Shown here: positions 812-43,608 of the stretch, piece after piece
Layout: each line of letters begins with the position of its first letter
How positions within the stretch are numbered: position 1 is the first letter of the stretch
DNA from: Paucibacter sp. Y2R2-4
Lineage (GTDB): Bacteria > Pseudomonadota > Gammaproteobacteria > Burkholderiales > Burkholderiaceae_C
Assembly: GCF_025717535.1 (NCBI RefSeq)
Contig: NZ_JAJIRO010000001.1
Span: 1-64,000, forward strand
DNA length: 64,000 nt
Direction of reading: 5' to 3'
Notes under the pieces: model-generated
What the model saw: the letters and a program-made list of their open reading frames with translations, nothing else
Databases searched by the model: none
Told to the model about the DNA's origin: nothing
Position numbers and translations under genes: made by a program

Positions 812-1327
812 GATCTGCTCTCCTGAACTTTGGTGTCTTCAGCAAGTTTTGTCTTGCTGTGGTGTCTGGGTTCTTGTCCTCGAGGGACAAGTGAATACAT
901 TGATCTGCCCGGGGGCGCCCGCGCAAATATTTGCGATGCTGACCGGACGTATCGCCGAGGCTTTACGCTTCAATCAGTCTGTTATCGGTTTTCTTTAGCT
1001 TGGCTTGAGTCGAGTCAAAAACAGGCGAAGACCCACAGGCCGAGGCGCACAAACGCCCGGTTCTAGGTCTTGCCATGTTGTGCTGAATGGCCATGAGGAG
1101 AAGCGGTGATAACCGCCGCAAAACTGGACTTTTCGCAATTCAGGGCTCAAGTTTGGCGCTGCTTGGTCGATATGCAGAACGTGGCCAGTGGGGTTTGCGG
1201 CTCAGAGCCGCTGGAGGTATGGGCGCATTTGCAGAGGTTTTCGGCGGCTAATCAAGCGCTAGCTTCAGGGCCATGGCTCATAACATGCAGTGAGCTTTCA
1301 AGAACCGTTTTAACGGAAGAAACTGCC
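812..1327. other. Divergent intergenic region
   Basis: This stretch separates the octad-repeat gene (leftward) from the TPR/GT41 gene (rightward) and probably holds both promoters. No convincing -35/-10 pair was found. The reading frame of the GT41 gene extends back to a GTG at 1106 with a GAGGAG motif ahead of it, so 1106-1327 may be translated; the composition there looks non-coding and ATG 1328 is preferred. Confidence 0.5.
873..891. promoter_or_regulatory. Inverted repeat upstream of octad-repeat gene
   Basis: CTTGTCC and GGACAAG form a perfect 7-bp dyad around TCGAG, about 60 bp upstream of the ATG at 811. It could be an operator or a small hairpin in the leader. No regulator is known for it. 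Confidence 0.3.
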
Positions 1328-3226
1328 ATGGATATGCCCGCACCTTCAATTCAGTCCACTTCTGCTCCGCAACCGGAACTGGAGAGCTTGCTCTCGCAAG
1401 CTAGAACGGGCGCGATGGCACTGGGCGATTTGATGACCAAGGCGTCGGATTTGCAGACAGCCGGTCGCGCTGAATGGGCAATTCAGCTTTATCAGGCTTG
1501 GGTGGAAGGCAACTCAAGCTCACCCTTTCTGCCCGTTGCTTGTTACAACTGGGGCACGCTCTTGGGTGCGGAACGCCGGCATAACGACGCAGAGCAGGCT
1601 TACCGCCGGGCGTTGGCGCTGAGCCCGGCTTTTTATCAAGCCCGTTTGAATTTGGGTCATCAGTTGGAACACACGGGCCGGGTGGAGGAGGCCCTGGCGG
1701 AATGGCGCACGGTCGATGAAGCCCTGGCCTGTGCCTCGAGTCAACCCCTCAGCGATGAGTTGCTGGAGTTGAAACTCCACGCCTTGAACAATTCGGCTCG
1801 CTTGCTAGAGACGCACAAGCAGTTTGCTCAATCACAAGCCTTGATGAGACGAAGCTTGGAATTGAATCCACGTCAAAGCGATGTGATCCAGCACTATGTA
1901 CACATTCGTCAGAAGCAATGCGACTGGCCGGTGTACCAGCCAGTCGGTCAAGTGACTCATAACCAATTATTGGTGGGGACCTCTTTACTGGCGATGTTGA
2001 GTGCCAGCGATGATCCGGCGTTACAGCTGATGGTGGCGCAGCGCTTTGTGCATGAAAAAGTTCTGGCCTACAAAGACAAACCTTTGCACAGCCAAGCCGT
2101 CTCGCGATTGGCTCGACAAGGCCGAATCAAGGTGGGCTATCTTTCGGGCGATCTTTGCATGCATGCTGTGGGCCTCCTGACGCCAGAGCTGTTTGAGCTG
2201 CATGACCGCGAACGCTTCGAGGTGTTTGCGTTCTGCTGGAGCCGAGAAGACGGAACGGCACAGCGCGCTCGCATTTTGAAGGGCATGGATCATCATGTAC
2301 GCCTCGCCGGTGTGGATGACTTCACCGCAGCACGGCTGATCGCCCAAGCTGGCATTGACGTCTTGGTTGACCTGCAAGGTCTGACCAGTGGTGCCCGGCC
2401 CAATATCTTGGCCTATCGCCCGGCTCCGATTCAGGTCAGCTATTTGGGCCTGCCGGCGACTTCGGCCTTGCCGGGGGTGGATTGGATCATTGCTGATCGC
2501 TTTGTAATGCAGCCGGAGTATTTGCCGTATTGCACTGAAAAACCAATCTACTTGGACAACTGCTACCAAGTCAGTGACCGGCAGCGGGAGGTGGCGCCGC
2601 CGCCAAGCCGCTCGACATACAACTTGCCGGAATCTGCCTTTGTTTTTTGCTCCTTCAATAACAACCACAAGTTCAGCGAAGAGGTGTTTGGCAGCTGGAT
2701 GAGGATCCTGAAGCAGGTGCCCAATAGCGTGTTGTGGTTGCTGGCCGATAACGAATGGTCCAAGGCCAATATGATTCAAGCTGCGGCAGCCCAGGGCATT
2801 GCTGAAGATCGATTGATCTTCGCGCCACGGGTTGCCCCAGCGGAGTACCTCGCTCGTTTCGCTTTGGCTGACCTGGTGCTGGACACTTTCCCCTACAACG
2901 CGGGCACGACGGCCAGCGATTGTCTGTGGATGGGAACGCCGATCCTGACCCGTTCAGGTTGCACCTATATTTCTCGCATGGCGGGCAGTTTGCTCACGAA
3001 TGTGGGCTTGCCTGACCTGATCACGTATTCCCTGGCGGAATATGAGCAGCGTGCGGTGCAAATTGGTCTGAACCCGGCTCGGGCCCAATCTTACAAACGT
3101 TATCTGACCGAGCACGGACGCCAGTCCAAGCTGTTTGATATTCCAGGTTTGGTACGCGACTTGGAATCCAAGTTTGAAAAGATGGCTTTGGACCATAGGC
3201 GAGCAATTGTCGGCAGCTCCGACTGA
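1328..3226 (+). CDS. TPR-containing GT41 (O-GlcNAc-transferase/SPINDLY-like) protein
   Basis: The protein (632 aa from ATG 1328) has TPR-like helices in about residues 60-180 (ACYNWGTLLG, AEQAYRRALALSP) and a Glyco_transf_41 catalytic half from about residue 265. Family signatures seen are KVGYLSGDLCMHAVG (the His region of the catalytic N-lobe), a SFNNNHKFSEEV motif with the conserved Lys, and DTFPYNAGTTASDCLWMGTPILT near the nucleotide site. GT41 enzymes transfer GlcNAc or hexose to Ser/Thr or Asn of proteins in the cytoplasm. The gene sits directly ahead of a type I secretion ATPase and next to a Ser/Thr-rich repeat protein, so it may glycosylate that substrate (inference). A GTG at 1106 would add 74 residues of doubtful coding character; GGAAGA precedes ATG 1328. 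Confidence 0.85.
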   Translation: MDMPAPSIQSTSAPQPELESLLSQARTGAMALGDLMTKASDLQTAGRAEWAIQLYQAWVEGNSSSPFLPVACYNWGTLLGAERRHNDAEQAYRRALALSPAFYQARLNLGHQLEHTGRVEEALAEWRTVDEALACASSQPLSDELLELKLHALNNSARLLETHKQFAQSQALMRRSLELNPRQSDVIQHYVHIRQKQCDWPVYQPVGQVTHNQLLVGTSLLAMLSASDDPALQLMVAQRFVHEKVLAYKDKPLHSQAVSRLARQGRIKVGYLSGDLCMHAVGLLTPELFELHDRERFEVFAFCWSREDGTAQRARILKGMDHHVRLAGVDDFTAARLIAQAGIDVLVDLQGLTSGARPNILAYRPAPIQVSYLGLPATSALPGVDWIIADRFVMQPEYLPYCTEKPIYLDNCYQVSDRQREVAPPPSRSTYNLPESAFVFCSFNNNHKFSEEVFGSWMRILKQVPNSVLWLLADNEWSKANMIQAAAAQGIAEDRLIFAPRVAPAEYLARFALADLVLDTFPYNAGTTASDCLWMGTPILTRSGCTYISRMAGSLLTNVGLPDLITYSLAEYEQRAVQIGLNPARAQSYKRYLTEHGRQSKLFDIPGLVRDLESKFEKMALDHRRAIVGSSD

Positions 3227-3242: not shown

Positions 3243-5606
3243 GTGGTGAGCAAACGAAACGATTCCTTCTTTGACGGCCCCAGACCTGCGGGCGGCTCAA
3301 ACGCGCCGAGTCTTTACCTCGCTGCGGACCGCGAAACAGCTCCGGCGGCCGAGCCGACGCCTGAATGGCAGAAAGAGGCGCAAGGCGACATCGGCAACCC
3401 TTTGCTGCAGGCCATGGTTTGGCTGACTCAACACTATGGGCTCGCACGCTCTGCAGAGTCGCTCTTGGCGGGTGCTTCGGTCGATGGAACTTTGGGCCCT
3501 GATCAAGCGATGCGCATGATGCGCGAAGCAGGCTACAACGCCGGCTTGGTACGCCGCAAAATTGATGACCTCAACCCCTTGTTGATGCCATCGGTGTTGC
3601 TTCTCAATGACGGCGACGCCTGTGTGTTGGTGCGTCGCTTGGATGCAGCGCAGCCTCAGCCCGAGGGGCGCTATGAAGTGCTTTTCCCCGGAGCAGAAGC
3701 CAATATCTGCACGGCAAGCTCGGCCGAGCTTGAGGGTGAATACAGCGGTTTCACCATGTTGGTGACGCCGCAAGAGAAATCTCAAGCGCATACACGTTCC
3801 GATCCCCATTTGCGAAATCATGGGCCGCATTGGTTTTGGGGAACGGTCAAGCGCTTCATCCCGTACTACCGCGCCGCCATGCTGGCGGCCTTGTTGAGCA
3901 ACGTCCTGATGTTGGTCTCGGGTCTGGTGACCTCGGTCATCTATGACAAGGTAATCCCGAATCAGTCATTCGTGACCCTATGGACGCTGGCGATTGGTGC
4001 GGCCTTGGCGCTGGTGTTTGATTTATTCGCTCGTCAGTTGAGAGCACATTTGATTGATTTGGCCGGCCGCAAAGTCGATTTGATCGTGGGCGCCAAGCTT
4101 TTCCGCCAGTCGCTGGGCGTGCGCATGGAGTTCAAGCCCAGTTCGGCCGGCGCCTATGCCCACACCATCGGTCAGGTCGAGTGCGTTCGGGAGTTCTTCA
4201 CATCGGCGAGCATGTCGGTGGTGTCGGACCTGCCCTTCATCATCATCTTCATCGGAATGACATTTATCGTGGGCGGCCCCTTGGGCTGGGTGCCCGCCTT
4301 GGCGGTGCCCGTCATTTTGGGCATCTCGTTGTTGATGCAAAAACGCATGCGTGCGGCGGTCAATGAAAACATGGGGGAAATGGCCGATCTGCATGGCACG
4401 CTGGTTGAGGCAGTAGAAGGGCTGGAGGACTTGAAGACCTCGGGCGCAGAGGGACGCTTTTTGCGTCGCTATGAAACCACCTCCGCCGCCGCCGCCGAAT
4501 CCGCCATGCGCAGCCGTGATATGCATGCCTGGAACAGCAATCTGTCCAGTACTCTGCAGCAAGCGATCACCATGATCATGCTGGTCTGGGGCGTCTACCT
4601 CATCAAAGACGGCGTGGTGACCGCCGGTGCTTTGATCGGCGCCGTGATGTTTGCCGGTCGCGCGATCGCGCCGCTGAGCATGGTGGTGAGCCTGGCGGCT
4701 CGCTATCAAGGCGCGCGTGCCGCGATGTCCTCCTTGGATCTGTTGATGGAGAAACCGACCGAGCGGGAGTCTGACCGTAACTATGTGCCGCTCAACAAGT
4801 TCAGCGGCAGCATTGCGCTCAACGATGTGGGCTTTGCCTATCCGGCCGAGGGCAATGCGGTGGCGCCCAAAGTTCTGAAGAACGTCACTTTGAAGATTCG
4901 CGCCGGCGAACGGGTGGCCATTCTGGGACGCATTGGCAGTGGCAAGTCCACCGTATTGCGCATGATGGCCAGCCTCTATCAGCCAAGCGAAGGCATGGTC
5001 GAGGTGGACGGTATCGACCTGCGCCAAGTGGACCCGGCGGAGTTTCGGGCCCGGGTGGGCTTTGTGTCTCAGGATCCCAGGCTTTTCCACGGCAGCCTAC
5101 GCGACAACGTGTTGATGGGACGTGCTCACATCGATGCCTCGCGTTTGGTGGAAGTGGCCCGCTTGACCGGACTGGACCGTGTGGTCGCAGCGCATCCTAT
5201 GGGCTGGGATTTACCGGTCGGTGAACAGGGTTGCTTGCTTTCGGGCGGGCAACGCCAGTTGGTGGCCCTGGCCCGAAGCTTGATCAGCAAGCCGCAAGTG
5301 CTTTTGATGGACGAGCCCACCAGCTCGATGGACGCGCAATCCGAAGTGTCTTTTCTGCGCCAACTGCGTGATGCTGCGGGCGAATGCACTCTTGTGATGG
5401 TGACACACCGACCGGCGGTGCTGGAGTTGGTCTCTCGCATCACAGTGATGGACAGCGGCCGTGTCGTCATGGATGGCCCGCGCGATCAGGTCTTGGCAGC
5501 GCTCTCTGGGGTGCGGCCCACTCAGCCAGCGTCTTCACCTGAGGCCCAGTCCAATTTGCATATGCACCCGGCGGCCCAGCCGGTGCAGCGTTCTGCCTCC
5601 GTGTAA
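3243..5606 (+). CDS. Type I secretion ABC transporter ATPase/permease (LapB/HlyB type)
   Basis: 787 aa. An N-terminal peptidase-C39-like domain (about 45-165) has no Cys at the catalytic position (NPLLQAMVWLT), so it is a non-cleaving C39-like docking domain as in HlyB. The six-helix permease spans about 205-470. The ATPase carries Walker A GRIGSGKST (about 561-569), signature LSGGQRQ (about 666), Walker B VLLMDEPT (about 686) and the His of VTHRP (about 722). It would drive export of large unfolded proteins through an inner-membrane/HlyD/TolC channel without a cleaved signal. Start is GTG (GTG-GTG); the second GTG at 3246 is better spaced from AAGGA. It begins 17 bases after the GT41 gene and is followed by the HlyD-type adaptor, so these form one operon. 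Likely substrates are the octad-repeat proteins of this window. Confidence 0.93.
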   Translation: MVSKRNDSFFDGPRPAGGSNAPSLYLAADRETAPAAEPTPEWQKEAQGDIGNPLLQAMVWLTQHYGLARSAESLLAGASVDGTLGPDQAMRMMREAGYNAGLVRRKIDDLNPLLMPSVLLLNDGDACVLVRRLDAAQPQPEGRYEVLFPGAEANICTASSAELEGEYSGFTMLVTPQEKSQAHTRSDPHLRNHGPHWFWGTVKRFIPYYRAAMLAALLSNVLMLVSGLVTSVIYDKVIPNQSFVTLWTLAIGAALALVFDLFARQLRAHLIDLAGRKVDLIVGAKLFRQSLGVRMEFKPSSAGAYAHTIGQVECVREFFTSASMSVVSDLPFIIIFIGMTFIVGGPLGWVPALAVPVILGISLLMQKRMRAAVNENMGEMADLHGTLVEAVEGLEDLKTSGAEGRFLRRYETTSAAAAESAMRSRDMHAWNSNLSSTLQQAITMIMLVWGVYLIKDGVVTAGALIGAVMFAGRAIAPLSMVVSLAARYQGARAAMSSLDLLMEKPTERESDRNYVPLNKFSGSIALNDVGFAYPAEGNAVAPKVLKNVTLKIRAGERVAILGRIGSGKSTVLRMMASLYQPSEGMVEVDGIDLRQVDPAEFRARVGFVSQDPRLFHGSLRDNVLMGRAHIDASRLVEVARLTGLDRVVAAHPMGWDLPVGEQGCLLSGGQRQLVALARSLISKPQVLLMDEPTSSMDAQSEVSFLRQLRDAAGECTLVMVTHRPAVLELVSRITVMDSGRVVMDGPRDQVLAALSGVRPTQPASSPEAQSNLHMHPAAQPVQRSASV

Positions 5607-5631: not shown

Positions 5632-6834
5632 ATGACGCTAGCCCGTGACGAGGGGATGTTTTTGAGTAGTTTGGCCGCGGCCCAACTCGATGAGCCATTG
5701 CCGCGGGTAACCTGGGTCTTGTATCTGGTGTTGGCTGCGATCGTGGTCGCTGTGGTCTGGTCCACCGTAGCCAAGGTGGATATGGTGACCCGCACCGACG
5801 GTCGCGTGGTGCCAGATGGACGCGAACAAATCATCTCAACCATGGAAATTGGCATCCTCAGTGAGTTGCTGGTGCATGAAGGCGAAGAGGTGGAGCAGGG
5901 CGAAGAGCTGGTTCGACTCGACCCCACCCGTGTAGAAGCGCAGCAAAGCGAAGCGCAGGTGAAGCGTTTTTCCCTCAAGGCTGCGGCAGCTCGACTGAGT
6001 GCCGAAGCTTCAGGCCGTCCATTGGCTTTTCCTGCGGAGCTGAAGAGTCATAAGGCATTGGTTGATGCCGAATCGGAGTCTTATGAGTTGCGCAGGAAGC
6101 TCCTGGAAGAAGCGGTGAGCAGCATCAATCGCAGCGCCTCCTTGTTGTCCAACGAAATGAAAGTGGCTCAGGATCTCTCATCCAAGGGCTTGATGTCGAA
6201 TGTGGAAGTGATGCGCTTGAGCCGCCAGGTCAACGAGCTGCAGCAGCAGCGCAATGAGCGGATCAGCCGCTTCAAGCAAGAAGCCAGCGGCGAGCTGGTC
6301 AAGGTGCAAAACGAATTGGCCATGCTGGACGAACAAATGGTGGTCCGCGAGGACTCGCTCGCCCGCACCGTGCTGAAATCACCGGTCAATGGTTTGGTGA
6401 AGAACATCCGCAGCAATACCGTGGGCGGGGTCATCACGGCTGGAGCACCCATCATGGAAATTGTTCCTATGGGTGGGCGAGTGTTAGTTGAGGCCCGAAT
6501 TAAACCCATGGACGTGGGCTTTATTCATGTGGGCCAAAAGGCTACCGTGAAACTTTCGAGTTATGACTTCAATGTGTTTGGTGGGCTGATCGGCCGCGTG
6601 GAGTACATCAGCCCAGATGCTCTGGGGGATGCCGAAACGCCCAATGGTGACGCCCGCTATTACCGGGCGCGCATCAGCGCTGAAAAGAACACATTGCTGA
6701 AATCCAGGGGGGAGCAACTGCCTGTGATTCCTGGCATGACGGCCACTGTTGAGATCAAAACAGGCGAACGCTCAGTGATGAGCTTCCTCTTGCGCCCGAT
6801 GATGAAGTCCACCGAGGCCATGCGCGAGCGTTGA
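5632..6834 (+). CDS. HlyD-family type I secretion periplasmic adaptor (LapC type)
   Basis: 400 aa, a normal length for the family. A short cytoplasmic N-terminus is followed by one membrane segment (about 26-46), then a lipoyl/barrel-sandwich half (TDGRVVPDGREQIIST), a long helical hairpin (about 100-245, rich in Ala, Glu and Leu), the second lipoyl half (LKSPVNGLVKNIRSNTVGGVI) and a beta-barrel end with EARIKPMDVGFIHVGQKA. It links the ABC transporter of the preceding gene to an outer-membrane TolC-like channel. The start at 5632 lies 25 bases after the transporter stop with only a weak GAGA ribosome binding site. No outer-membrane factor follows directly; the nearest is at 17414-18922. Confidence 0.93.
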   Translation: MTLARDEGMFLSSLAAAQLDEPLPRVTWVLYLVLAAIVVAVVWSTVAKVDMVTRTDGRVVPDGREQIISTMEIGILSELLVHEGEEVEQGEELVRLDPTRVEAQQSEAQVKRFSLKAAAARLSAEASGRPLAFPAELKSHKALVDAESESYELRRKLLEEAVSSINRSASLLSNEMKVAQDLSSKGLMSNVEVMRLSRQVNELQQQRNERISRFKQEASGELVKVQNELAMLDEQMVVREDSLARTVLKSPVNGLVKNIRSNTVGGVITAGAPIMEIVPMGGRVLVEARIKPMDVGFIHVGQKATVKLSSYDFNVFGGLIGRVEYISPDALGDAETPNGDARYYRARISAEKNTLLKSRGEQLPVIPGMTATVEIKTGERSVMSFLLRPMMKSTEAMRER

Positions 6835-17304: not shown

Positions 17305-17413
17305 GTTCGGGCCTGGAAGGCTGGAGTCCTGGCCATGCAATGAGCTGATTTAGGCCAAGTCTGCCAAGTTGTTCACCAATTTGCCGGACTCGCTCTGTGT
17401 TCAAGTAGCAGCT

Positions 17414-18922
17414 ATGTTACGAGAGCACTCCAAAGAGCTAAGGCCCTTATTGCCCGGTCCCCGCGGTAAGAACGTGGCCACTGTTATCGCCGCAGTCCAA
17501 AGATGCTGTCAGCAATGCGCGCCTGTCGCGGCAGCCATCTTGGTATTCAGTTCCGCCGGCCTGGCGCTTGCGCAGGCGCCGGTGCGAAAACCCGGCAAAC
17601 CCGCTGCCGCCAGTGCCCCAGCACCAGCGTCCAAGGATCAAGCCACAAGCCCTAGTATGTGCGGCGAAGAAGATGCGCTGCCGTCTAGTCGCGGTCGCGA
17701 TGCCAGTACATATGAGCCGTCGGCAGTCGATCCGCGCAGCCAGTTGATCGATTTGGTGAACTTGGCCATTCAGCGCAGCCAGGCACAAGGGGCAAGCAAT
17801 CTATTAGCCCAGGCGGCCCGTGATGAATGGGAAGAGGCCCGCGCCGCTCGTATGCCTCAGGTCAGCTTGGGGGCCTCGCTGCTCAGCGTAGGTAACAAGG
17901 CCAGCAATCAAGAGCTAGTTAAGGGCTCGCAAGGTCATGCCAGTCTGCAAGTGACGGCTCCGCTTTACAGCTCGGGTCGTATCGAGCAGCTCGCCAATTG
18001 GCGCGGCCAGTTGGCCGAGTCGGCTCGCTACGGCATGCTCAACTCCGAGCAGCAGATCGCCTTGCAGACGGTGGCCTTGGCCTTGGATCGCAGTCGCTAC
18101 CACCTGCAAATCCAGGTCTACGGTCAGTATGTGCGTCGCATGTCGTGCTTGATTGAGTCTTTGGAGACCATCGTCAAGTCCGATAAGGGGCGTTCCAGCG
18201 AGTTGGTGCAGGCGCAAAAGACTCGCCAGCAAATCGAATTGACCGTGGACCAAACACGCAGCACCTTGCGGCAGATTGAGACGCGCTTGCGTCGCTTTGT
18301 CGGTGATGTGCTGCCACCCAGCGCCAGCTACTCTTCACTGCTGATGAGCGTGCCGCCCGTTGATGAGATGCAAAGCGATGCAGCTGAGGCGGCTGAGGTA
18401 CAGCAACTTGCCGCCCAGGCTCGGGCCCAGTCCAGTTACGCCGAGTCCGTGCAGGCGGCCAACCGGCCGCAAGTCAGTTTGGCCGTCAATCTTGACTCCA
18501 ACACGGGCCTGTCCAAAAGCAATGCCTGGGGGGCAGGGCTGAGCGTCACGATTCCGATCTTCACTCCAGGGTCTGACTACGGATTGAGCGCTGCGCGCAA
18601 ACGTGCAGAAGCGGCGCGCCTGCAAAAGGAAGACTCCATTGAATCGCGCCGTTATCGTGTGCTGGACGTTCATGAGTCGGCAACGTCTTCGTTTGAGCGC
18701 GCCCGCAGCGTGGTGGAGATACTGCGTAACAGCGATCGTCTACGTACCGCGACCTTGCAACAATGGCAGTTGTTGGGGCGTCGTTCCTTGTTTGACGTGA
18801 TTGGCGCGGAGTCGGACTACTATGGGCTGCGGATCTTGCATTTGAACGCGCTCAGCGATGGTCAACAGGCCGTGGCCATTCTGTGGTCTATGGGCCGCGG
18901 CGTGATGACCCCGATCAAATAG
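17414..18922 (+). CDS. TolC-family outer-membrane channel protein
   Basis: 502 aa from ATG 17414 (the frame also opens at a TTG at 17369). A long charged leader precedes the hydrophobic signal region (about 38-54, ending ALAQA). Two outer-membrane efflux repeats follow: ANLLAQAARDEWEEARAARMPQ-type and the SYAESVQAANRPQVSLAVNL segment, with heptad-like helices and the closing GRRSLFDVIGAESDYYGLR typical of the family. It would supply the outer-membrane channel for the type I exporter at 3243-6834, although it is about 10.5 kb away and inside the sugar locus. The ribosome binding site is weak. Confidence 0.88.
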   Translation: MLREHSKELRPLLPGPRGKNVATVIAAVQRCCQQCAPVAAAILVFSSAGLALAQAPVRKPGKPAAASAPAPASKDQATSPSMCGEEDALPSSRGRDASTYEPSAVDPRSQLIDLVNLAIQRSQAQGASNLLAQAARDEWEEARAARMPQVSLGASLLSVGNKASNQELVKGSQGHASLQVTAPLYSSGRIEQLANWRGQLAESARYGMLNSEQQIALQTVALALDRSRYHLQIQVYGQYVRRMSCLIESLETIVKSDKGRSSELVQAQKTRQQIELTVDQTRSTLRQIETRLRRFVGDVLPPSASYSSLLMSVPPVDEMQSDAAEAAEVQQLAAQARAQSSYAESVQAANRPQVSLAVNLDSNTGLSKSNAWGAGLSVTIPIFTPGSDYGLSAARKRAEAARLQKEDSIESRRYRVLDVHESATSSFERARSVVEILRNSDRLRTATLQQWQLLGRRSLFDVIGAESDYYGLRILHLNALSDGQQAVAILWSMGRGVMTPIK

Positions 18923-23521: not shown

Positions 23522-26500
23522 TTAAATCAGAGGATTGAATCGATTATCTTCCTCATCATTGTGCTTGCGAGGCACCAGGAGATGGCCTGCATGCTCGGAC
23601 GACGCGGGCGGTGTGAATCCACTGGCCAGATTGGCTTCCTGTAGCAGGCTACCGGATGGGCCGCTCAACAAGTCACCCAGCTTCACATCGGGTTTGGCCT
23701 CGTGGGCGGCGCCTTCAGGCTGAACATCCTTGCTGAACCAGACGTCCGCCACCGTGTGGCTTGCGCCATCCGCGGTCTTGTAGCCTGAGACCAAGCCGAT
23801 CAGATTGCCGTTGTCCAACTCGCTGTGCTTGTTGGCGTTCAATCCAATCTCGGTGATGCCCAACTCGGTCAATGTGCGAAGTTCGCCGGCATCGGTCTTG
23901 CCATCATGGTTGGCATCGACCCAGACACGTAGATCCTTAAAGTGAGTGTCATGGAGGTCCAGCTTGCCATCGTGGTTGCTGTCCTCGCCCGACATGGCCT
24001 GGTAGCCGTTGGCTGCATGTTTGCCGTTGGCCAGAACCGTGCCGGTGCCGAACAACTCCTTGCCGTCATTGATCTGGCCGTCATGGTTTCTATCCATCAC
24101 CAGCAGACCATCGTTGCCGCCCACCCAGCCCCATTTCTGAGCGTGACCGGTGGCGTTCAAGTCGAAGTTGACGCCACTGGCCGCCGACAAGGTGTCAATA
24201 CCATTGCCGTCCAGGTCCAAGACGATCGGTGTCGCCAGGAACAAGGCGTCCAACTGATCACCCGACATCGCACTGATCTGGTCGGTGGTGAATGAGGACA
24301 CTTGAGTCATGTTCATCTTGGCAATATCGACAGCTTCAAGTCCGGCGATCTGATCGGTCGTCAGGCTGACGATCTGATCGGTGGTGATGCCGGCCATCTG
24401 CGCCGTGGTTAGAGCCTTGATGTCTTCCGATCCGAAACGATGGAACTGATCGGTGCTGAAGGCATGGATTTGCGATGAAGTGAAGGCCGCGATCTGCGCC
24501 GTGCTCAAGGCGTCCACATCATCGCTCGCCAGCGTTCCGATCTGATCCGAAGTAAAGGCGCGGATCTGTGCGCTGGAGAAGCTGTGGATTTGGTCGGTTG
24601 TCAACGCTTGGAACTGCTCGGTCGAGAAGGAAGAGAGTCCCGAAGTCGATAGACCAACCAAACTGCTGGTCGCAATGGCTCCGATATCTTCGGTCTGCAG
24701 GCCGGTGAGTTGAGCACTCGAGAAGCTGGCGAACTGGCTGCTCGAGAAGGCACCCACCTGATCCGAGGTGAAGGCCGTCATATCAGCCGAGTTCAGGCCG
24801 CGCACAGCCGCTGTCGTCATGGCCCGCAGGTCCTCCGTCGCCATGACCTTGATTTGGTCGGTGGACATCACGGAGATCTGCGAGGACGTCAGTGCAGCCA
24901 CTTGGCGGGTGCTCAGGGCCTGCACATCATCGGTCGCCCAGCCGCTGATCTGCGTGGTGCTCAAGGCGGTCAGCTGTAGATTGGTCAGGGAGGTGACTTG
25001 GTCAGTCGTCAGCGCATTCAGCTGGTCGGTGTTCAAGGCACGCATGGCGAACACACTCAAGGCCCGCAGGTCCTCAGTCTGCAGTGCCTGCATCATGTCG
25101 GTACTGATACCTGCCACCTGCACCGCAGTGAGTGAAGCGAACTGTGCCGAGCTCAGAGAGTTGAGGTCATCTGAGCCCATGGCCAGGACCTGCGCCGAAT
25201 TGATGCTGGCGATCTGGCTGCTGCTCAGCTTGGTGATCTGGTCGGAGCTCAAGGCCACAAACTGATCGGTGCTGAACTTGGACAGTGCCGCCGTCGACAG
25301 GGCTCGCACATCCTCCGTCTGCATATTGGCGATCTGCTCGGTGTTGAATCCCGAAGTCTGTGCGGAGCTTAGAGCCGCAAACTGCGCCGTGCTCATGGCC
25401 ACCACAGAGTCCGTTGTCAACGAGGCCAACTGATCAGAAGTGAAGCCGCGGATGGCGGTCGAACTGATCGACGACAGATCGTCGCTGGCCAAGCCGCGCA
25501 CCTGGTCACTCGTCATTGCACCCAATTGGGCGGAATTGAGGGCCTTGAATTGCTCGGTGGTCAGCGAGTTCAAGTTGTCGGTGGAAAGGCCCTTGACCTG
25601 GCTGGTGGTCATCGATGCGACCTGAGCGGTGCTCAAGGCACGCAGCTGATCGGTCCCCAAGGCCGCAAACTGATCGCTGGCCAGGCCGCGCAAGGCTGCG
25701 GTGGACAGGGCCCGCAGATCTTCAGTCTCGAACTTGCTCATCTGTTCGGTCGTCAGCCCGCCAATTTGCTGCGTTGTCAGTTGCGAGAACTGTGCGCTGC
25801 TCATGGCCACGAATTCGTCGGTCGTCAGGGCGCCGAGCTGCACGGACGTGAAGCCGCGGATACCGCTGGTGCTGATCGAGGCCAGATCCTCGGTACTCAT
25901 CGCACGCAGCTGATCGGTGGTGATCGCCCCAATCTGGGCCGAGCCCATCAGCTTGAATTGCTCGGTGGTGAAGGCGTTCAGGTTGTCGCTGCTCAGGCCA
26001 GCGATCTGCGTCGATGTCAGCGCGTTGACCTGTGAGGAGCTCAACTTGCTGATCTCGTCGGTGGTCAGCGCCGCCAGCTGATCGGTGCCCAGGGCACGAA
26101 TGGCGGCGGTGCTGATGGCGCGCAAGTCATCGGTTTCCAACTTGGCGATCTGATCGCTGTTCAAACCACGCACTTGTGCGGAGGTCAGGGCCGCGAACTG
26201 GGTCGTGGTCAGGGCCACGGTCTCGTCCGTGGTCAACGCGGCGATCTGGGCCGAGCTCAAACCGCGGATGCCATTGGTGCTGATCGCGGCCAAGTCTTCC
26301 GTCTGCATGCTCCGCAGCTGATCGGTGTTGATCGCACCGATCTGGGCGGAACCCATCAGCTTGAACTGCTCGGTCGTGAAGGCATTCAGGTTGTCGCTGC
26401 TCAGGCCTGCGATCTGGGTGGAGGTGAGAGCATTGACCTGCGAGGTGATCAGCTTGCTGATTTCATCGGTGGTCATGGCCGCCAACTGATCGGTACCCAA

Positions 26501-29500
26501 GGCCCGAATTGCGGCGGTGCTGATGGCCCTCAAGTCATCGCTTTCCAGCTTGGCGATTTGGTCGCTGTTCAAGCCCTTGACCTGTGCAGAAGTCAAGGCC
26601 GAGAACTGGGCTGTGGTCAGGGCCACGGACTCGTCGGTGGTCAGCGCGGCAATTTGCGCCGAACTCAGACCGCGGATGCCGTTGGTGCTGATGGCGACCA
26701 GATCCTCGGTCGTCATCGTGCGCAACTGATCGGTGTTGATGGCCCCAATCTGCGCTGAGCCCATCAGCTTGAACTGTTCGGTGGTGAAGGCGTTCAAGTT
26801 GTCACTGCTCAAGCCGCCAATTTGCGTAGAGGTGAGCGCGTTGACCTGGGCCGAACTCAGTTTGCCGATCTCGTCGGTGGTCAAGGCAGCCAACTGATCG
26901 GTGCCCAGGGCTCGAATCGCCGCGGTGCTGATGGCGCGCAGGTCATCACTCTCGAGATTGGAGAGCTGATCGCTATTCAAACCACGCACTTGGGCGGAGG
27001 TCAGTGCGGCGAACTGGGTCGTGGTCAAGGCCACGGTTTCGTCGGTGGTGAGGGCTGCGATCTGGCTTGAGCTCAGGCCTCGGATGCCAGCGGTACTGAT
27101 CGCGACCAGATCCTCGGTCGTCATGGTGCGCAGCTGATCGGTATTGATGGCACCGATCTGTGCTGAGCCCATCAGCTTGAACTGTTCGGTCGTGAAGGCA
27201 TTCAGGTTGTCACTGCTCAGGCCGGCAATTTGCGTCGAGCTGAGGGAATTGACCTGTGCGGTGGTGAGTTTGCTGATCTCCTCGGTGGTGAGGGCGGCCA
27301 ACTGATCGGTGCCCAGGGCGCGAATGGCGGAGGTGCTGATCGCGCGCAGATCATCGCTCTCCAGCTTGGAGAGTTGATCGCTGTTCAAACCACGCACCTG
27401 ACCGGAAGTCAGGGCGGCAAACTGCGACGTGGTCAGTGCCACGGTTTCGTCAGTCGTCAAGGCGCCAATCTGGGCCGTGCTCAGACCACGAATGCCGTTG
27501 GTGCTGATGGCAACCAAATCTTCCGTCGTCATGGTGCGCAGCTGATCGGTGTTGATCGCCCCAATCTGCGCTGAACCCATCAACTTGAACTGCTCTGTCG
27601 TGAAGGCGTTCAGGTTGTCGCTGCTCAGGCTGGCGATCTGAGTCGAGCTCAGGGCGTTGACTTGAGCGGAGCTGAGCTTGCCTATCTCGTCAGTAGTCAA
27701 TGCGGCCAGCTGATCCGTGCCCAGGGCTCGGATTGCAGCAGTACTGATGGCGCGCAGGTCATCGCTCTCCAGCTTGGAGAGTTGATCGCTATTCAAACCG
27801 CGGACTTGTGCCGAGGTCAGCGCGGCGAACTGGGCCGTCGTCAGAGCCACGGTCTCGTCGGTGGTCAGCGCTGCAATCTGGGCCGAGCTCAAACCACGAA
27901 TCCCGTTGGTGCTGATGGCGACCAAATCCTCGGTCGTCATGGTGCGTAGCTGATCAGTGTTGATGGCACCGATCTGCGCCGAGCCCATGAGCTTGAACTG
28001 CTCGGTCGTGAAGGCGTTCAGGTTGTCGCTGCTCAGGCCGGCGATCTGCGTCGAGGTGAGCGCGTTGACCTGTGAAGAGCTCAGCTTGCTGATCTCATCG
28101 GTGGTCAAGGCCGCCAATTGATCCGTGCCCAGGGCGCGAATCGCGGCGGTGCTGATGGCACGCAGGTCATCGGTCTCCAGTTTGGAGAGTTGGTCACTGT
28201 TCAATCCACGTACTTGTGCGGAGGTCAAGGCGGCGAACTGGGTCGTGGTGAGGGCCACGGTCTCGTCCGTCGTCAAGGCGCCGATCTGAGCTGAGCTCAG
28301 GCCGCGGATGCCGGCAGTGCTGATGGCAACCAGGTCTTCCGTTGTCATCGTGCGCAGCTGATCGGTGTTGATCGCTCCGATCTGGGCCGAGCCCATCAGT
28401 TTGAACTGCTCGGTGGTGAAGGCGTTCAAGTTTTCGCTGCTCAGGCCGCCGACTTGAGTGGATGTGAGTGCGTTGACTTGGGCAGAAGTGAGCTTGCTGA
28501 TCTCGTCGGTGGTCAGGGCAGCCAGCTGATCCGTGCCCAGGGCCCGAATCGCGGCGGTGCTGATGGCCCGCAGGTCATCACTCTCCAGCTTGGCGAGCTG
28601 GTCGCTGTTCAAACCCTTCACCTGAGCCGAGGTCATGGCCGAGAACTGAGCGGTGGTCAGGGCCACGGTTTCGTCTGTCGTCAACGCGCCGACTTGGGCC
28701 GAACTCAGACCTCGTATGCCGTTGGTGCTGATGGCGGCCAAGTCTTCAGTCTGCATGGTGCGCAGCTGATCGGTGTTGATCGCACCAATCTGGGCCGATC
28801 CCATCAGCTTGAATTGCTCGGTCGTGAAGGCGTTCAAGTTATCGCTGCTCAGGCCACCCACTTGGGTCGAAGTCAGGGCATTGACTTGAGCGGAGCTCAG
28901 CTTGCTGATCTCATCAGTGGTCAATGCGGCCAACTGATCTGTGCTCAGGGCGCGAATGGCTGCGGTGCCGATGGCGCGCAGGTCATCGGTTTCCAGCTTG
29001 GCGATTTGATCGCTGTTCAGGCCGCGTACTTGGGCTGAGGTCAGGGCAGCGAACTGGGCGGTCGTCATCGCCACGGTTTCGTCCGTGGTCAACGCGGCAA
29101 TCTGTGCAGAATTCAGGCCGCGAATGCCGTTGGTGCTGATGGCGACCAGATCTTCGGTCGTCATGGTGCGCAGTTGATCGGTGTTGATGGCACCGATCTG
29201 TGCCGAGCCCATGAGCTTGAACTGCTCTGTCGTAAAAGCGTTCAGGTTGTCGCTGCTCAAACCGCCAATTTGGGTCGAGGTCAAGGCATTGACTTGGGCT
29301 GAGCTCAGTTGGGCGATTTGATCTGTGCTCAGTGCCGCCAACTGTTCGGTGCCCAGGGCTCGCAGTGATGCGGTGCTGATCGAACGCAGGTCATCGCTTT
29401 CCAACTTGGCCAGCTGATCGCTGTTCAAGCCGCGAACCTGAACCGAAGTTAGCGCGGCGAACTGAGCGGTGGTCAGCGCCACGGTTTCGTCGGTGGTCAG

Positions 29501-32500
29501 CGCGGCGATCTGCGCCGTGCTCAGGCCTCGGATGCCTGCTGTGCTGATGGCGACCAAATCTTCGGTCTGCATGGTGCGCAGTTGATCGGTGTTGATCGCA
29601 CCGATCTGTGCCGAGCCCATCAGCTTGAACTGCTCAGTTGTGAAGGCGTTCAAGTTATCGCTGCTCAGGCCCGCGATCTGCGTGGACGTGAGTGAATTGA
29701 CCTGGGCCGAAGTAAGCTTGGAAATTTCGTCAGTGGTCAATGCGCCCAGTTGATCCGTGCCCAAGGCGCGAACGGGTGCTGTGGTGATGGCGCGCAGGTC
29801 ATCGCTTTCCAACTTGGAAATCTGGTCGCTGGTCAAACCCTTCACCTGTGCGGAGGTCAGGGCGGCGAACTGGGCGGTGGTCATCGCCACGGTTTCGTCG
29901 GTGGTCAGCGCGGCGATCTGGGCCGAACTCAGTCCACGGATGCCGTTGGTACTGATGGCGACCAGATCTTCGGTCGTCATCGTGCGCAGCTGATCGGTGT
30001 TGATCGCGCCGATTTGGGCCGAGCCCATCAGCTTGAACTGCTCAGTCGTGAATGCATTCAGATTGTCGCTACTCAGGCCCGCGATCTGGGCGGAGGTGAG
30101 GGCGTTGACCTGTGCGGTGGTCAGTTTGCTGATTTCCTCGGTCGTCAAAGCGGCCAGCTGATCGGTGCTCAGGGCTCGAATGGCGGCGGTGCTGATGGCA
30201 CGCAGGTCATCGCTCTCCAGTTTGGAGAGCTGATCGCTGTTCAAACCACGCACTTGTGCGGAAGTCAGGGCAGCGAATTGGGTCGTGGTCATTGCCACGG
30301 TCTCGTCGGTGGTCAGCGCGGCAATCTGGGCCGAACTCAGACCACGAATGCCATTGGTGCTGATGGCGACCAGATCTTCGGTCGTCATGGTGCGCAGCTG
30401 ATCGGTGTTGATCGCGCCGATTTGGGCCGAGCCCATCAGCTTGAACTGCTCCGTCGTGAATGCATTCAGGTTGTCGCTGCTCAGCCCGGCGATCTGGGTG
30501 GATGTGAGTGCATTGACCTGAGCGGATGTCAGCTTGCTGATTTCGTCGGTGGTCAAGGCTCCGAGTTGATCGGTACTCAAGGCGCGTAGAGCTGCTGTGC
30601 TGATGGCGCGCAAATCATCAGTTTCCAACTTGGAGAGTTGATCACTGTTCAAGCCACGCACTTGCGCCGAGCTCATCGCGGCGAACTGTGCCGTGGTCAT
30701 GGCCACTGTCTCGTCGGTAGTCAGCGCACCCACTTGTGTGGAGCTGAGGCCTCGGATGCCGTTGGTGCTGATGGCCACCAGGTCTTCCGTGGTCATCGTG
30801 CGCAATTGATCGGTGTTGATCGCGCCGACCTGGGCCGAGCCCATCAGCTTGAATTGCTCAGTGGTGAAGGCGTTCAGGTTATCGCTGCTCAGGCCACCCA
30901 CTTGAGTCGAGGTCAGGGCATTGACTTGCGCGGAACTCAGCTTGCTGATCTCATCCGTGGTGAGGGCTGCCAGCTGATCGGTGCCGAGGGCACGCAGCGC
31001 GGCGGTGCTGATGGCTCGCAGATCATCACTCTCCAGGTTGGAGAGTTGATCGCTGTTCAGACCTCGCACCTGAGCGGAGGTCAACGCGGCGAACTGGGCC
31101 GTGGTCAGGGCCACGGCCTCATCTGTCGTCAACGCGGCGATCTGGGCGGAGCTCAAGCCGCGGATGCCGCTGGTGCTGATGGCGACCAGATCCTCGGTGG
31201 TCATTGTGCGCAGCTGATCGGTGTTGATCGCGCCGATTTGGGCCGAACCCATCAGCTTGAACTGCTCGGTCGTGAAGGCGTTCAGGTTGTCGCTGCTCAA
31301 GCCTGCGATCTGAGTGGAGGTGAGCGCATTGACCTGAGCAGTCGTCAGTTTGCTGATTTCCTCTGTCGTCAAGGCGGCGAGTTGATCCGTGCCCAGGGCC
31401 TTGATCGCTGCGGTACTGATGGCGCGCAGGTCATCGCTTTCCAGCTTGGAGAGCTGATCACTGTTCAAGCCGCGTACCTGTCCGGAGGTCAGTGCTGCGA
31501 ACTGGGTCGTGGTCAAGGCCACGGTTTCGTCGGTGGTCAGCGCGCCAATTTGGCTCGAGCTCAGGCCTCGGATGCCGGCGGTGCTGATGGAGGTTAGATC
31601 CTCCGTGCTCATGGTGCGCAGCTGATCGGTGTTGATCGAAGCGATCTGGGCCGAGCCCATTTGCTTGAACTGCTCGGTGGTGAAGGCGTTCAGGTTGTCG
31701 CTGCTCAGCCCGCTGATCTGGGTGGAGGTGAGGGCGTTGACCTGGGAGGTGCTCAGCTTGGCAATTTCATCAGTGGTCAGGGCGGCAAGCTGCTCAGTGC
31801 TCAATGCGCGAAGAGCCGCGGTGTTGATGGCGCGCAGGTCATCGGTTTCCAGCTTGGACAGTTGATCGCTGGTCAGACCCTTGATTTGGGCGGAACTCAG
31901 CGCAGCGAACTGGGACGTGGTCAGGGCCACGGTTTCGTCCGTGGTCAGCGCGGCGATCTGTGCCGAGCTCAGTCCGCGGATACCATTGGTGCTAATGGAG
32001 GCCAAGTCCTCCGTTTGCATGGTGCGTAGCTGATCGGTGTTGATTGAGCCTATCTGGGCCGAACCCATCAGCTTGAACTGTTCGGTGGTGAAGGCGTTGA
32101 GGTTGTCGCTGCTCAGCCCGCTGATCTGTGTGGAGGTGAGTGCGTTGACCTGTGAGGAACTCAGCTTGCCAATTTGATCCGTACCCAGAGCCGCGAGTTG
32201 ATCCGTACCCAGTGCTCGCAAAGCACCTGTGCTGATCGCACGAAGATCATCGGTCTCCAGTTTGGAGAGCTGATCGCTGTTCAAACCCCGCACTTGAGCG
32301 GAAGTCAGGGCCGAGAATTGCGCGGTCGTCAGCGCCACAGTTTCGTCCGTCGTCAGCGCAGCGATCTGGGCCGAGCTCAGGCCTCGGATACCGGCCGTGC
32401 TGATAGCGGCCAAGTCCTCCGTCTGCAGGGTGCGCAACTGATCGGTGTTGATGGCAGCGATCTGGGCCGAGCCCATCAACTTGAACTGCTCGGTGGTGAA

Positions 32501-33265
32501 GGCGTTCAGGTTGTCGCTGCTTAAACCGCTGACTTGAGTGGAGCTCAGCGCGTTGACCTGCGCCGAGGTCAGCTTGGTAATCTGATCGGTGCCCAGAGCC
32601 GCCAGTTGGTCCGTTCCCAAGGCGCGCAAGGCCGCGGTGCTGATCGCGCGCAAGTCGTCAGTTTCCAGCTTGGCGATCTGGTCGCTGTTGAGCCCGCGCA
32701 ACTGGGCAGAGGTCAAGGCAGCCACTTGGGCCGTGCTCAGAGCAACAATGCCGTCCGAAGTCAATGCGCCAATCTGGCTGGAACTGAAGCCCCTGACCGA
32801 TGCCGTGCTGATGGCTGCCAGGTCTTCGGTGGTCATGGTGCGCAGCTGATCGGTGCTGATGGCGCCGATCTGAGCTGAGCCCAGGCTGCGGAATTGTTCG
32901 GTCGTCAGCGCATTCAGGCTGTCGCTGGAAAGACCCGCGATCTGGTTGGAGGCCAGCACCTTCAGTTGCGCTGAGGTGAGGCGTTCGATTTGATCGGTCC
33001 CCAAGGCGGCGAACTGGTCAGTGGTCAGCGCGCGAATCGCTGCGGAGTTCAGCACGCGGAAGTCATCTGACTCCAGAGCTCTGAGCTGATCGGTGCCGAG
33101 TGCTCGAATGGCGAACGAGCCAAGTGAACTCACCTGGGCGGTTGTCAGCGCTACGATTTGGTCCGAGGAAAACGCTGCCCAGTCTTCCGTGGTGAGCTTG
33201 GCCAAGCCTTTGGTGCTCAACTTTTGGATCGCTGCCGTTCCGAAGGACAAAATGGATGAGGGCAT
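23522..33265 (-). CDS. Giant octad-repeat protein with Ca-binding secretion-type C-terminus
   Basis: 3247 aa. After 7 residues the chain is about 375 consecutive 8-residue units (residues 8-3007 by hand count) of the form [LIMF]-[TSNG]-[ST]-[DAE]-[QED]-[ILVF]-x-[AGKT], with no insertion or deletion seen. There is no signal peptide. The last 240 residues change character: TPIVLDLDGNGIDTLS, a motif common in type I-secreted proteins, then three EF-hand-like loops DRNHDGQINDGKE (about 3058), DSNHDGKLDLHD (about 3095) and DANHDGKTDAGE (about 3117). It is thus probably exported by the ABC/HlyD/TolC set in this window and may be an adhesin or matrix protein. The repeat could form a solenoid; Ser/Thr at two places per octad offers many glycosylation sites. 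The head matches that of the gene at 1-811. Confidence 0.95.
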   Translation of the reverse strand: MPSSILSFGTAAIQKLSTKGLAKLTTEDWAAFSSDQIVALTTAQVSSLGSFAIRALGTDQLRALESDDFRVLNSAAIRALTTDQFAALGTDQIERLTSAQLKVLASNQIAGLSSDSLNALTTEQFRSLGSAQIGAISTDQLRTMTTEDLAAISTASVRGFSSSQIGALTSDGIVALSTAQVAALTSAQLRGLNSDQIAKLETDDLRAISTAALRALGTDQLAALGTDQITKLTSAQVNALSSTQVSGLSSDNLNAFTTEQFKLMGSAQIAAINTDQLRTLQTEDLAAISTAGIRGLSSAQIAALTTDETVALTTAQFSALTSAQVRGLNSDQLSKLETDDLRAISTGALRALGTDQLAALGTDQIGKLSSSQVNALTSTQISGLSSDNLNAFTTEQFKLMGSAQIGSINTDQLRTMQTEDLASISTNGIRGLSSAQIAALTTDETVALTTSQFAALSSAQIKGLTSDQLSKLETDDLRAINTAALRALSTEQLAALTTDEIAKLSTSQVNALTSTQISGLSSDNLNAFTTEQFKQMGSAQIASINTDQLRTMSTEDLTSISTAGIRGLSSSQIGALTTDETVALTTTQFAALTSGQVRGLNSDQLSKLESDDLRAISTAAIKALGTDQLAALTTEEISKLTTAQVNALTSTQIAGLSSDNLNAFTTEQFKLMGSAQIGAINTDQLRTMTTEDLVAISTSGIRGLSSAQIAALTTDEAVALTTAQFAALTSAQVRGLNSDQLSNLESDDLRAISTAALRALGTDQLAALTTDEISKLSSAQVNALTSTQVGGLSSDNLNAFTTEQFKLMGSAQVGAINTDQLRTMTTEDLVAISTNGIRGLSSTQVGALTTDETVAMTTAQFAAMSSAQVRGLNSDQLSKLETDDLRAISTAALRALSTDQLGALTTDEISKLTSAQVNALTSTQIAGLSSDNLNAFTTEQFKLMGSAQIGAINTDQLRTMTTEDLVAISTNGIRGLSSAQIAALTTDETVAMTTTQFAALTSAQVRGLNSDQLSKLESDDLRAISTAAIRALSTDQLAALTTEEISKLTTAQVNALTSAQIAGLSSDNLNAFTTEQFKLMGSAQIGAINTDQLRTMTTEDLVAISTNGIRGLSSAQIAALTTDETVAMTTAQFAALTSAQVKGLTSDQISKLESDDLRAITTAPVRALGTDQLGALTTDEISKLTSAQVNSLTSTQIAGLSSDNLNAFTTEQFKLMGSAQIGAINTDQLRTMQTEDLVAISTAGIRGLSTAQIAALTTDETVALTTAQFAALTSVQVRGLNSDQLAKLESDDLRSISTASLRALGTEQLAALSTDQIAQLSSAQVNALTSTQIGGLSSDNLNAFTTEQFKLMGSAQIGAINTDQLRTMTTEDLVAISTNGIRGLNSAQIAALTTDETVAMTTAQFAALTSAQVRGLNSDQIAKLETDDLRAIGTAAIRALSTDQLAALTTDEISKLSSAQVNALTSTQVGGLSSDNLNAFTTEQFKLMGSAQIGAINTDQLRTMQTEDLAAISTNGIRGLSSAQVGALTTDETVALTTAQFSAMTSAQVKGLNSDQLAKLESDDLRAISTAAIRALGTDQLAALTTDEISKLTSAQVNALTSTQVGGLSSENLNAFTTEQFKLMGSAQIGAINTDQLRTMTTEDLVAISTAGIRGLSSAQIGALTTDETVALTTTQFAALTSAQVRGLNSDQLSKLETDDLRAISTAAIRALGTDQLAALTTDEISKLSSSQVNALTSTQIAGLSSDNLNAFTTEQFKLMGSAQIGAINTDQLRTMTTEDLVAISTNGIRGLSSAQIAALTTDETVALTTAQFAALTSAQVRGLNSDQLSKLESDDLRAISTAAIRALGTDQLAALTTDEIGKLSSAQVNALSSTQIASLSSDNLNAFTTEQFKLMGSAQIGAINTDQLRTMTTEDLVAISTNGIRGLSTAQIGALTTDETVALTTSQFAALTSGQVRGLNSDQLSKLESDDLRAISTSAIRALGTDQLAALTTEEISKLTTAQVNSLSSTQIAGLSSDNLNAFTTEQFKLMGSAQIGAINTDQLRTMTTEDLVAISTAGIRGLSSSQIAALTTDETVALTTTQFAALTSAQVRGLNSDQLSNLESDDLRAISTAAIRALGTDQLAALTTDEIGKLSSAQVNALTSTQIGGLSSDNLNAFTTEQFKLMGSAQIGAINTDQLRTMTTEDLVAISTNGIRGLSSAQIAALTTDESVALTTAQFSALTSAQVKGLNSDQIAKLESDDLRAISTAAIRALGTDQLAAMTTDEISKLITSQVNALTSTQIAGLSSDNLNAFTTEQFKLMGSAQIGAINTDQLRSMQTEDLAAISTNGIRGLSSAQIAALTTDETVALTTTQFAALTSAQVRGLNSDQIAKLETDDLRAISTAAIRALGTDQLAALTTDEISKLSSSQVNALTSTQIAGLSSDNLNAFTTEQFKLMGSAQIGAITTDQLRAMSTEDLASISTSGIRGFTSVQLGALTTDEFVAMSSAQFSQLTTQQIGGLTTEQMSKFETEDLRALSTAALRGLASDQFAALGTDQLRALSTAQVASMTTSQVKGLSTDNLNSLTTEQFKALNSAQLGAMTSDQVRGLASDDLSSISSTAIRGFTSDQLASLTTDSVVAMSTAQFAALSSAQTSGFNTEQIANMQTEDVRALSTAALSKFSTDQFVALSSDQITKLSSSQIASINSAQVLAMGSDDLNSLSSAQFASLTAVQVAGISTDMMQALQTEDLRALSVFAMRALNTDQLNALTTDQVTSLTNLQLTALSTTQISGWATDDVQALSTRQVAALTSSQISVMSTDQIKVMATEDLRAMTTAAVRGLNSADMTAFTSDQVGAFSSSQFASFSSAQLTGLQTEDIGAIATSSLVGLSTSGLSSFSTEQFQALTTDQIHSFSSAQIRAFTSDQIGTLASDDVDALSTAQIAAFTSSQIHAFSTDQFHRFGSEDIKALTTAQMAGITTDQIVSLTTDQIAGLEAVDIAKMNMTQVSSFTTDQISAMSGDQLDALFLATPIVLDLDGNGIDTLSAASGVNFDLNATGHAQKWGWVGGNDGLLVMDRNHDGQINDGKELFGTGTVLANGKHAANGYQAMSGEDSNHDGKLDLHDTHFKDLRVWVDANHDGKTDAGELRTLTELGITEIGLNANKHSELDNGNLIGLVSGYKTADGASHTVADVWFSKDVQPEGAAHEAKPDVKLGDLLSGPSGSLLQEANLASGFTPPASSEHAGHLLVPRKHNDEEDNRFNPLI
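24245..33244 (-). repeat. 375-unit octad array with 408-bp super-repeat
   Basis: The coding repeats are 24-bp units grouped in 17s. The octads LSSDNLNA-FTTEQFKL recur every 408 bp in exact register, from about 25981 to 32509 (17 copies), with a more divergent in-register copy at each side (about 25573 and 32917). The copies differ at scattered bases, not in length. Towards both ends the super-repeat fades while the octad phase stays intact. Confidence 0.95.
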
Positions 33266-40868: not shown

Positions 40869-43046
<2,178 letters not shown>

Positions 43047-43065
43047 GCCAAGCGCTGAGACACGC

Positions 43066-43608
43066 ATGAGTGCCTATCAGCTGCAGCCGGTGGCGGCCGA
43101 AGATCTGGACGCGCTGTTCCAGCTGCGCATGGAGGCCTTGCGGCCCAGCCTGGAGCGACTGGGTCGCTTCGACCTGGCGCGCAGCCGTGAACGTTTTGAG
43201 GCCTTGTTCGAGCCCGAGACCATGCGCCACATCTGCCGCGGCAGCGAGCGGGTCGGGTTCTTGATGCTGCGCGAAACGCCCGCGGGTGAAGCGTCAGCCT
43301 TGCGTCTGGAGCAGCTATACCTGCAGCCCGCGGCGCAAAGCCAGGGCATCGGCTCCTGGGTGCTCAGCTGGGCCAAGGACCAGGCTCGGGGGGCGGGCCT
43401 GAACCTCAGCCTCTCGGCCCTCAAGCTCAGCGATGCCAACCGTTTCTATCTGCGCCACGGCTTCAAGGCGGTGGGCGAGAGTGAGTTCGACATCGACTAC
43501 CTTTGGCGCCTGCCCCATGTCGGTGATGAGGCTCGCCTGGCCCAGGTGCCGGACGGTATTGCACCGGTGTGGTCGGGCGTGCAGGGTAAGAGGACGGGGC
43601 GCGAATGA
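43066..43608 (+). CDS. GNAT-family N-acetyltransferase
   Basis: 180 aa. The GNAT core is seen as YQLQPVAAEDLDALFQLR, the acetyl-CoA-binding LYLQPAAQSQGIGSWVLSWAK (Q-x-x-G-I-G loop at about 98) and the strand ANRFYLRHGFKAVGESEF. The acceptor is unknown. It lies between the mutase and meaB genes, overlaps meaB by 4 bases and so is translated with them; whether it has a role in propionate metabolism is not known. Confidence 0.85.
   Translation: MSAYQLQPVAAEDLDALFQLRMEALRPSLERLGRFDLARSRERFEALFEPETMRHICRGSERVGFLMLRETPAGEASALRLEQLYLQPAAQSQGIGSWVLSWAKDQARGAGLNLSLSALKLSDANRFYLRHGFKAVGESEFDIDYLWRLPHVGDEARLAQVPDGIAPVWSGVQGKRTGRE

Follow-up and report, generated by a model that had tools for sequence, protein, structure and literature searches.

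The window, the 64,000-nucleotide stretch of DNA analysed here, carries on its minus strand an open reading frame of 3247 amino acids (23522..33265; ORF call, with a Pfam PF20080 match of 2404 bits), which consists of an octad array and a tail with calcium loops. The strand was missing from the first-pass annotation of this DNA. The array spans residues 8-3007 (24245..33244, minus strand) in a single phase, as given by the octad count and an AF2 model of 34 octads, and our recount returned the 375 octads without a phase break that had been reported before. The pattern [LIMF]-x-[ST]-x-x-[LIVMFT] fits 365 of the 375 octads; when the same residues were shuffled 200 times, 13 octads fitted on average and 22 at most. 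Octads that deviate at a single position (1, 3 or 6) number 25 of 375, and 15 of these have Thr at position 6. Ser and Thr together make up 781 of the 3000 array residues, and one or the other is found at octad position 3 in 98% of octads. A longer period, which had gone unremarked, is superimposed on the octads: residues 304-2479 (25829..32356, minus strand) form 16 super-repeats of 17 octads (136 aa) each, with 78% identity at lag 136. Among the 16 copies (120 pairs), the mean dN is 0.073, the mean dS is 1.03 and the median dN/dS is 0.07. By these values the copies are old and held by strong purifying selection, as opposed to products of recent slippage.

On the plus strand lie the genes for a TPR and GT41 glycosyltransferase of the OGT-like type (1106..3226; Pfam PF13844, 263.8 bits; best PDB match XcOGT, 2jlb), a type I secretion permease/ATPase of the LssB type (3243..5606; TIGR03375, 798 bits against a cut-off of 693), an HlyD-type periplasmic adaptor (5632..6834; TIGR01843, 330.6 bits, cut-off 208.65) and a TolC/OEP-type outer-membrane channel (17369..18922; Pfam PF02321, E 9.6e-22; TIGR01844 below cut-off). 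The true start of the GT41 gene may be downstream of the called one, because the 12 other GT41 orthologs in the genus align from query residue 44-74. As described below, the array gene belongs to a conserved set with the LssB-type type I secretion system (T1SS) and, in most members, the GT41 enzyme.

The array is a full-scoring member of the Pfam family PF20080 (ALTTAQ_rpt), with 2404.4 bits against a curated cut-off of 26.4 and 111 matching stretches. A literature search for ALTTAQ or PF20080 found no published fold or function, and a search by description of the repeat found nothing on the ALTTAQ_rpt family beyond the alpha-helical screw preprint discussed below. Thus, the earlier remark that no named structural family with this period was known is incorrect with regard to the name, given Pfam ALTTAQ_rpt and the HeliScrew4 entry with the same octad (PDB 9zem), and a function for ALTTAQ_rpt was not found in the literature search. 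Plasmid-borne relatives, where annotated at all, are labelled "heme utilization protein", "ICE nucleation protein", "large exoprotein involved in heme utilization or adhesion" or hypothetical. The source genome, Roseateles/Paucibacter-like by its named relatives, has at least three further ALTTAQ open frames. One is cut by the start of the window, which is also the start of the contig, so that its N-terminal part is left (270 aa; 1..811, minus strand); others encode 2091 aa (G000:C2) and 601 aa (G000:C5). Phase shifts are frequent in the ALTTAQ arrays of the f55 group (L151, L153, L155, L157 and L160; genomes G228, G247, G259 and G267). The array of NZ_CP084753.1 (L178), labelled Roseateles sp. 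XES5 (UNVERIFIED_ORG), has a Shinella-like composition, and the organism label may be wrong. A match at 29% identity on a plasmid of a Spiroplasma endosymbiont (CP117533.1, 14557-15339) may reflect chance periodicity.

For residues 1096-1367 (34 octads, 54 aligned sequences), AF2 gave a model with a pLDDT of 96.0 and a pTM of 0.85. Each of the 34 modelled octads forms one helix of 5-6 residues and a short link. This is the string of short capped helices that the first-pass annotation had put forward, and the structure prediction it had proposed as a check returned, for these octads, short helices and no disordered chain. We take the helices to occupy octad positions 3-8, with position 2 as the N-cap and position 5 as N3 of a capping box, and positions 1 and 6 are presumably compatible with a hydrophobic staple. 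In a phmmer comparison, the array aligned with HeliScrew4 (PDB 9zem) over 103 residues with no gap (E 1.1e-16) and with the octad pattern in register. The available text of a preprint of December 2025 (PMC12822642) describes a new, tightly wound alpha-helical screw that was obtained from random repeats and confirmed by CD and X-ray. From the name of its entry, HeliScrew4 is taken to be this screw. Its octad, L-[TS]-x-x-[QEK]-[ILVF]-x-A, is like that of the window array, and one short helix per octad, as modelled by AF2 for the array, would hold for HeliScrew4 too if the description in the available text of PMC12822642 applies to it. The two differ in that HeliScrew4 has 120 residues and is presumably designed, whereas the window array is natural and 375 octads long. 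They also differ at octad position 3, which is Pro in 11 of 13 counted HeliScrew4 octads and almost always Ser or Thr in the window. A VIA-align comparison of the AF2 model matched generic alpha-solenoids, with 9zem not among the matches listed. Because the HeliScrew4 alignment is free of gaps and the model has one helix per octad, the window array looks like a natural use of the alpha-helical screw, and we consider it highly probable that this is the fold.

A solenoid with two units per turn had also been suggested, but the periodicity gives about 3.4 octads per turn instead. Of 15 usable arrays, 14 had their strongest smoothed spectral period at 3.36-3.45 octads. The 15 were kept from 24 attempted by a filter of at least 60 in-phase octads and the strict pattern, and L149, L151, L155, L158, L160, L162, L165, L167 and L168 were dropped. 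At the level of units, the top harmonic was 3.38-3.43 octads in 17 of 18 tests, and unit permutation tests of the period gave p<0.02 in 15 of 16. The L065 array lacked the period in the spectrum, in the unit-level harmonic and in the permutation test. The lengths of the super-repeats were surveyed in 88 arrays, many of which share ancestry. The best self-match lag was a multiple of 8 residues in 80 of them and was not in the other 8. Among the 80, it was 17 octads in 36 arrays and 24 and 34 octads in 10 each, with lags of 7, 10, 27, 44, 51, 61, 75, 85 and 88 octads less frequent. In 76 of the 80 arrays the lag differs by no more than 0.15 turn from an integer count of 3.4-octad turns, as 29% of integers would; the four lags that do not fit are 2, 4, 6 and 52 octads. 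These periods point to a superhelix of about 3.4 octads per turn.

With the window array wound at 3.396 octads per turn and the cylinder divided into 60-degree sectors, three neighboring sectors have an acidic residue at position 4 in 0.95-0.98 of their octads and the other three in 0.00-0.14. Part of this contrast is by construction, since the sectors were placed according to the acidic residues. The net charge per octad ranges from -1.3 to +0.6 across the sectors, and in 13 of 16 unit permutation tests the position-4 signal is significant (p<0.01). Thus, as computed, the rod has one acidic face, with the position-4 acids on one half of the cylinder. At this geometry 375 octads would make about 110 turns, and the rod would be roughly 100 nm long if the rise is about 1 nm per turn.

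The C-terminal tail (residues 3008-3247, 240 aa; 23525..24244, minus strand) is like the self-processing module of FrpC. Residues 3013-3179, a match of 167 residues, align with this module by phmmer (6sjw, E 4.5e-30; 6sjx, E 2.8e-29), and most calcium ligands and both Trp are shared. The motif PIVLDLDGNGI, from residue 3013, and the three DxNxDG loops that were read earlier are present. By alignment to the FrpC module, calcium loop 1 covers residues 3058-3070 (24056..24094), loop 2 residues 3095-3106 (23948..23983) and loop 3 residues 3117-3128 (23882..23917), all on the minus strand. Asp3106, the final acidic residue in loop 2, is conserved as Asp in 92 of 92 array-bearing tails. The FrpC position numbered 511 in the paper aligns by count with Thr3107, beside Asp3106, and the ligand at FrpC 423 is Asn in the window tail. 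A pattern search of the whole 3247-aa protein found no RTX nonapeptide GGxGxDxxx. According to the available text of PMC7078468, calcium triggers cleavage of Asp414-Pro415 in FrpC, and a transient fifth calcium site is proposed for D414, D478 and D579. In the window tail the cleavable Asp is replaced by Thr, with Thr3012-Pro3013 (24227..24232, minus strand) aligned at Asp414-Pro415, and the residue aligned with D478 is also changed. The location of the module is different as well: it forms the end of the window protein, whereas more than 400 residues follow it in 20 of 25 non-array relatives.

The cleavage position was surveyed in 116 distinct tails, kept after five rows without the motif had been dropped. 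The cleavage position is Thr or Ser in 91 of 91 array-bearing tails (82 dense, 9 sparse), whereas the 25 tails with at most three octads have Asp in 23 and Ser in 2. With a second grouping, 92 array tails have Thr in 73 and Ser in 19, and 23 others have Asp in 21 and Ser in 2. Thus, a cleavable Asp-Pro at the N-terminal edge of the module was found in 0/91 and 0/92 array tails. The D478 equivalent is Glu in 2 and Asp in none of the 92 array tails; in the 23 non-array tails it is Asp in 1 and mostly Glu. D579 is conserved in 92 of 92 array tails, and most ligands of the remaining calcium sites are retained. Since most ligands are kept and the cleavable Asp is lost, the tail domain should fold with calcium and should not cut itself. 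The arrays of G474 and of two Pseudomonas plasmids (L149, L162, L165) are followed by another C-terminal stretch, with a VQLLVA or IQLLVA ending, in place of the FrpC-like tail.

We treated 150 genomes of the bacterial family as one sample across the tail, ABC and GT41 counts. An ortholog of the ABC gene is found in 32 of them, all 32 with a FrpC-like tail; four genomes have the tail without the ABC gene and 114 have neither (Fisher 1.3e-28, a value that overstates independence because the genomes are related). The tail lies on the same contig within 45 kb of the ABC gene in 23 of the 32, the two are on separate contigs in 7, and in the remaining 2 the distance between them is 64 kb or 438 kb. 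Within the genus, the tail gene shares a contig with the GT41/ABC pair in 12 of 13 genomes and is split from it in G001. The linked T1SS genes support the earlier description of the protein as secreted-type, and from this gene linkage type I secretion is very likely its route of export.

The GT41 gene is part of the same neighborhood. Orthologs of the GT41 and ABC proteins (at least 64% identical) occur in 13 of 18 genus genomes and are adjacent in 13 of 13. At E 1e-150, GT41 is found in 28 of the 150 family genomes, directly beside the ABC gene in 27 of 27 with both, and at this threshold there is no match in 5 of the 32 ABC-bearing genomes. The window enzyme aligns with XcOGT (2jlb) at E 3.8e-78 and with the OGT 110 kDa subunit at E 4.5e-74, and it differs from both in that its gene is linked to those of a T1SS and of a giant repeat protein. 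GT41-TPR genes also lie by the array gene on Rhizobium, Cereibacter, Rhodovastum and Pseudomonas plasmids, and Pfam confirmed six of these genes. Among 23 plasmid regions outside the family, GT41 is in the stretch in 11 and absent from it in 12, including those of two Shinella, a Thioclava and a Polaromonas plasmid; 11/23 is not a frequency, because the last 13 regions were chosen for GT41 presence or absence. At least 26 of 57 ALTTAQ plasmids, 11 of them from Cereibacter, have GT41 within 13 kb, as counted from the best 60 of 85 GT41 records. In G474, OEP, HlyD and ABC genes come after the array and GT41, on the other strand, and in G547 GT41 is just upstream of the array. No GT41 was found in the stretches from four f55 genomes, an absence that is local only because many GT41 genes lie elsewhere in these genomes. 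Away from their arrays, the f55 genomes encode giant proteins with multiple GT41 domains (open frames of 2367-3781 aa).

In an exploratory comparison, 13 arrays linked to GT41 had a mean Ser/Thr fraction of 0.84 at octad position 3, and 15 unlinked arrays had a mean of 0.62; the groups are non-independent, and L062 and L181 were counted as linked though their GT41 lies outside the fetched stretch. L162, L166, L169 and L170 were left out, and position 2 was alike in linked and unlinked arrays. Position-3 Ser/Thr failed as a mark of GT41 when used for advance prediction, on plasmids only: GT41 was found in 0 of 4 plasmids expected to carry it. The plasmids predicted to be free of GT41 lack it in 3 of 3 searched, with L178 left out. 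Because of this failure, the claim of glycosylation is one from gene linkage only. We lean, with some reserve, to the view that the GT41 enzyme modifies the array by O-glycosylation. Alternatively, the protein could be a secreted alpha-screw rod without sugars, with GT41 and the sugar genes belonging to a neighboring polysaccharide locus that is linked by position only. The window locus is rich in nucleotide-sugar genes and could simply make polysaccharide; several lineages have ALTTAQ genes without GT41 in the stretch, and the failed prediction agrees with this explanation too. However, GT41 adjoins the T1SS gene in every family genome with both, and on two Rhizobium plasmids it neighbors the ALTTAQ gene, where the incomplete annotation shows no gene for polysaccharide biosynthesis within about 16-18 kb. 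We regard the unglycosylated rod as unlikely, though it deserves serious weight.

A known system with a similar arrangement is the adhesin-glycosyltransferase pair HMW1/HMW1C, in which, as far as the available text of PMC3983070 goes, a very large surface protein has a partner GT41 enzyme encoded beside a secretion gene. The window likewise has a giant protein and a GT41 gene beside a secretion gene. HMW1 uses two-partner secretion, whereas the window system is a T1SS; HMW1C has an AAD fold and makes N-links, whereas the window enzyme is TPR-type and OGT-like. A chaperone role for HMW1C is discussed in the available text of PMC3983070, and the GT41 protein of the window, which has a TPR domain, could serve mainly as a chaperone, holding the giant chain in a state fit for export and transferring little or no sugar. 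This is improbable, since the alignment with XcOGT and OGT runs on across the catalytic region. We assume that the His and Lys aligned there act in catalysis. Finally, a low-complexity expansion without a stable fold, that is, a disordered mucin-like chain, could be proposed from the high Ser/Thr content, but the pLDDT of 96, the strict phase, the dN/dS of 0.07 and the face-specific charge make this very improbable.

We favor, with moderate confidence, a calcium-capped giant surface or matrix rod that is exported by the T1SS and is probably O-glycosylated. The chain would be made unfolded in the cytosol, where GT41 may add sugar to some of the 781 Ser/Thr of the array, and the T1SS would then export it C-terminus first. 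Outside, calcium would make the tail fold as a cap that does not cleave, and the array would wind into the rod of about 110 turns. With charge on one side, the rods could associate laterally or attach to a charged surface, as a coat or adhesive fibre; this role is a guess, for which we see even chances, and the fibre or adhesin suggested in the first-pass annotation stays plausible. More tentatively, and with slightly less than even chances, we propose the whole as a T1SS counterpart of HMW1/HMW1C. Here the alpha-helical screw would serve as the body of giant T1SS-exported rods with an acidic face, the 3.4-octad turn would set the super-repeat lengths, OGT-like glycosylation would precede export, and a cleavage-dead module would supply the calcium cap. 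If true, this would place in biology a fold that the available text of the preprint describes only as found by computation and confirmed by experiment for an example, and the sequence by itself would suffice to read the geometry of the screw. Giant bacterial surface proteins with a GT41 enzyme of their own would gain a second class, here on type I secretion, and genes labelled "heme utilization protein" or "ICE nucleation protein" would have a testable role.

Further arrangements of these genes were seen elsewhere. On plasmid pA of the laboratory strain Cereibacter sphaeroides 2.4.1 (L169), an array gene annotated as "ICE nucleation protein" (DQL45_RS23715) lies side by side with genes for GT41 (DQL45_RS20570), an ABC transporter with a peptidase domain (DQL45_RS20575) and HlyD (DQL45_RS20580). 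In a genus genome without a close ABC ortholog, one contig (G012:C206, 4811-16302) holds a divergent GT41-like gene, an ABC-like gene and the tail. In the window itself, positions 40869-48870 carry methylmalonyl-CoA mutase, MeaB and propionyl-CoA carboxylase-type genes.
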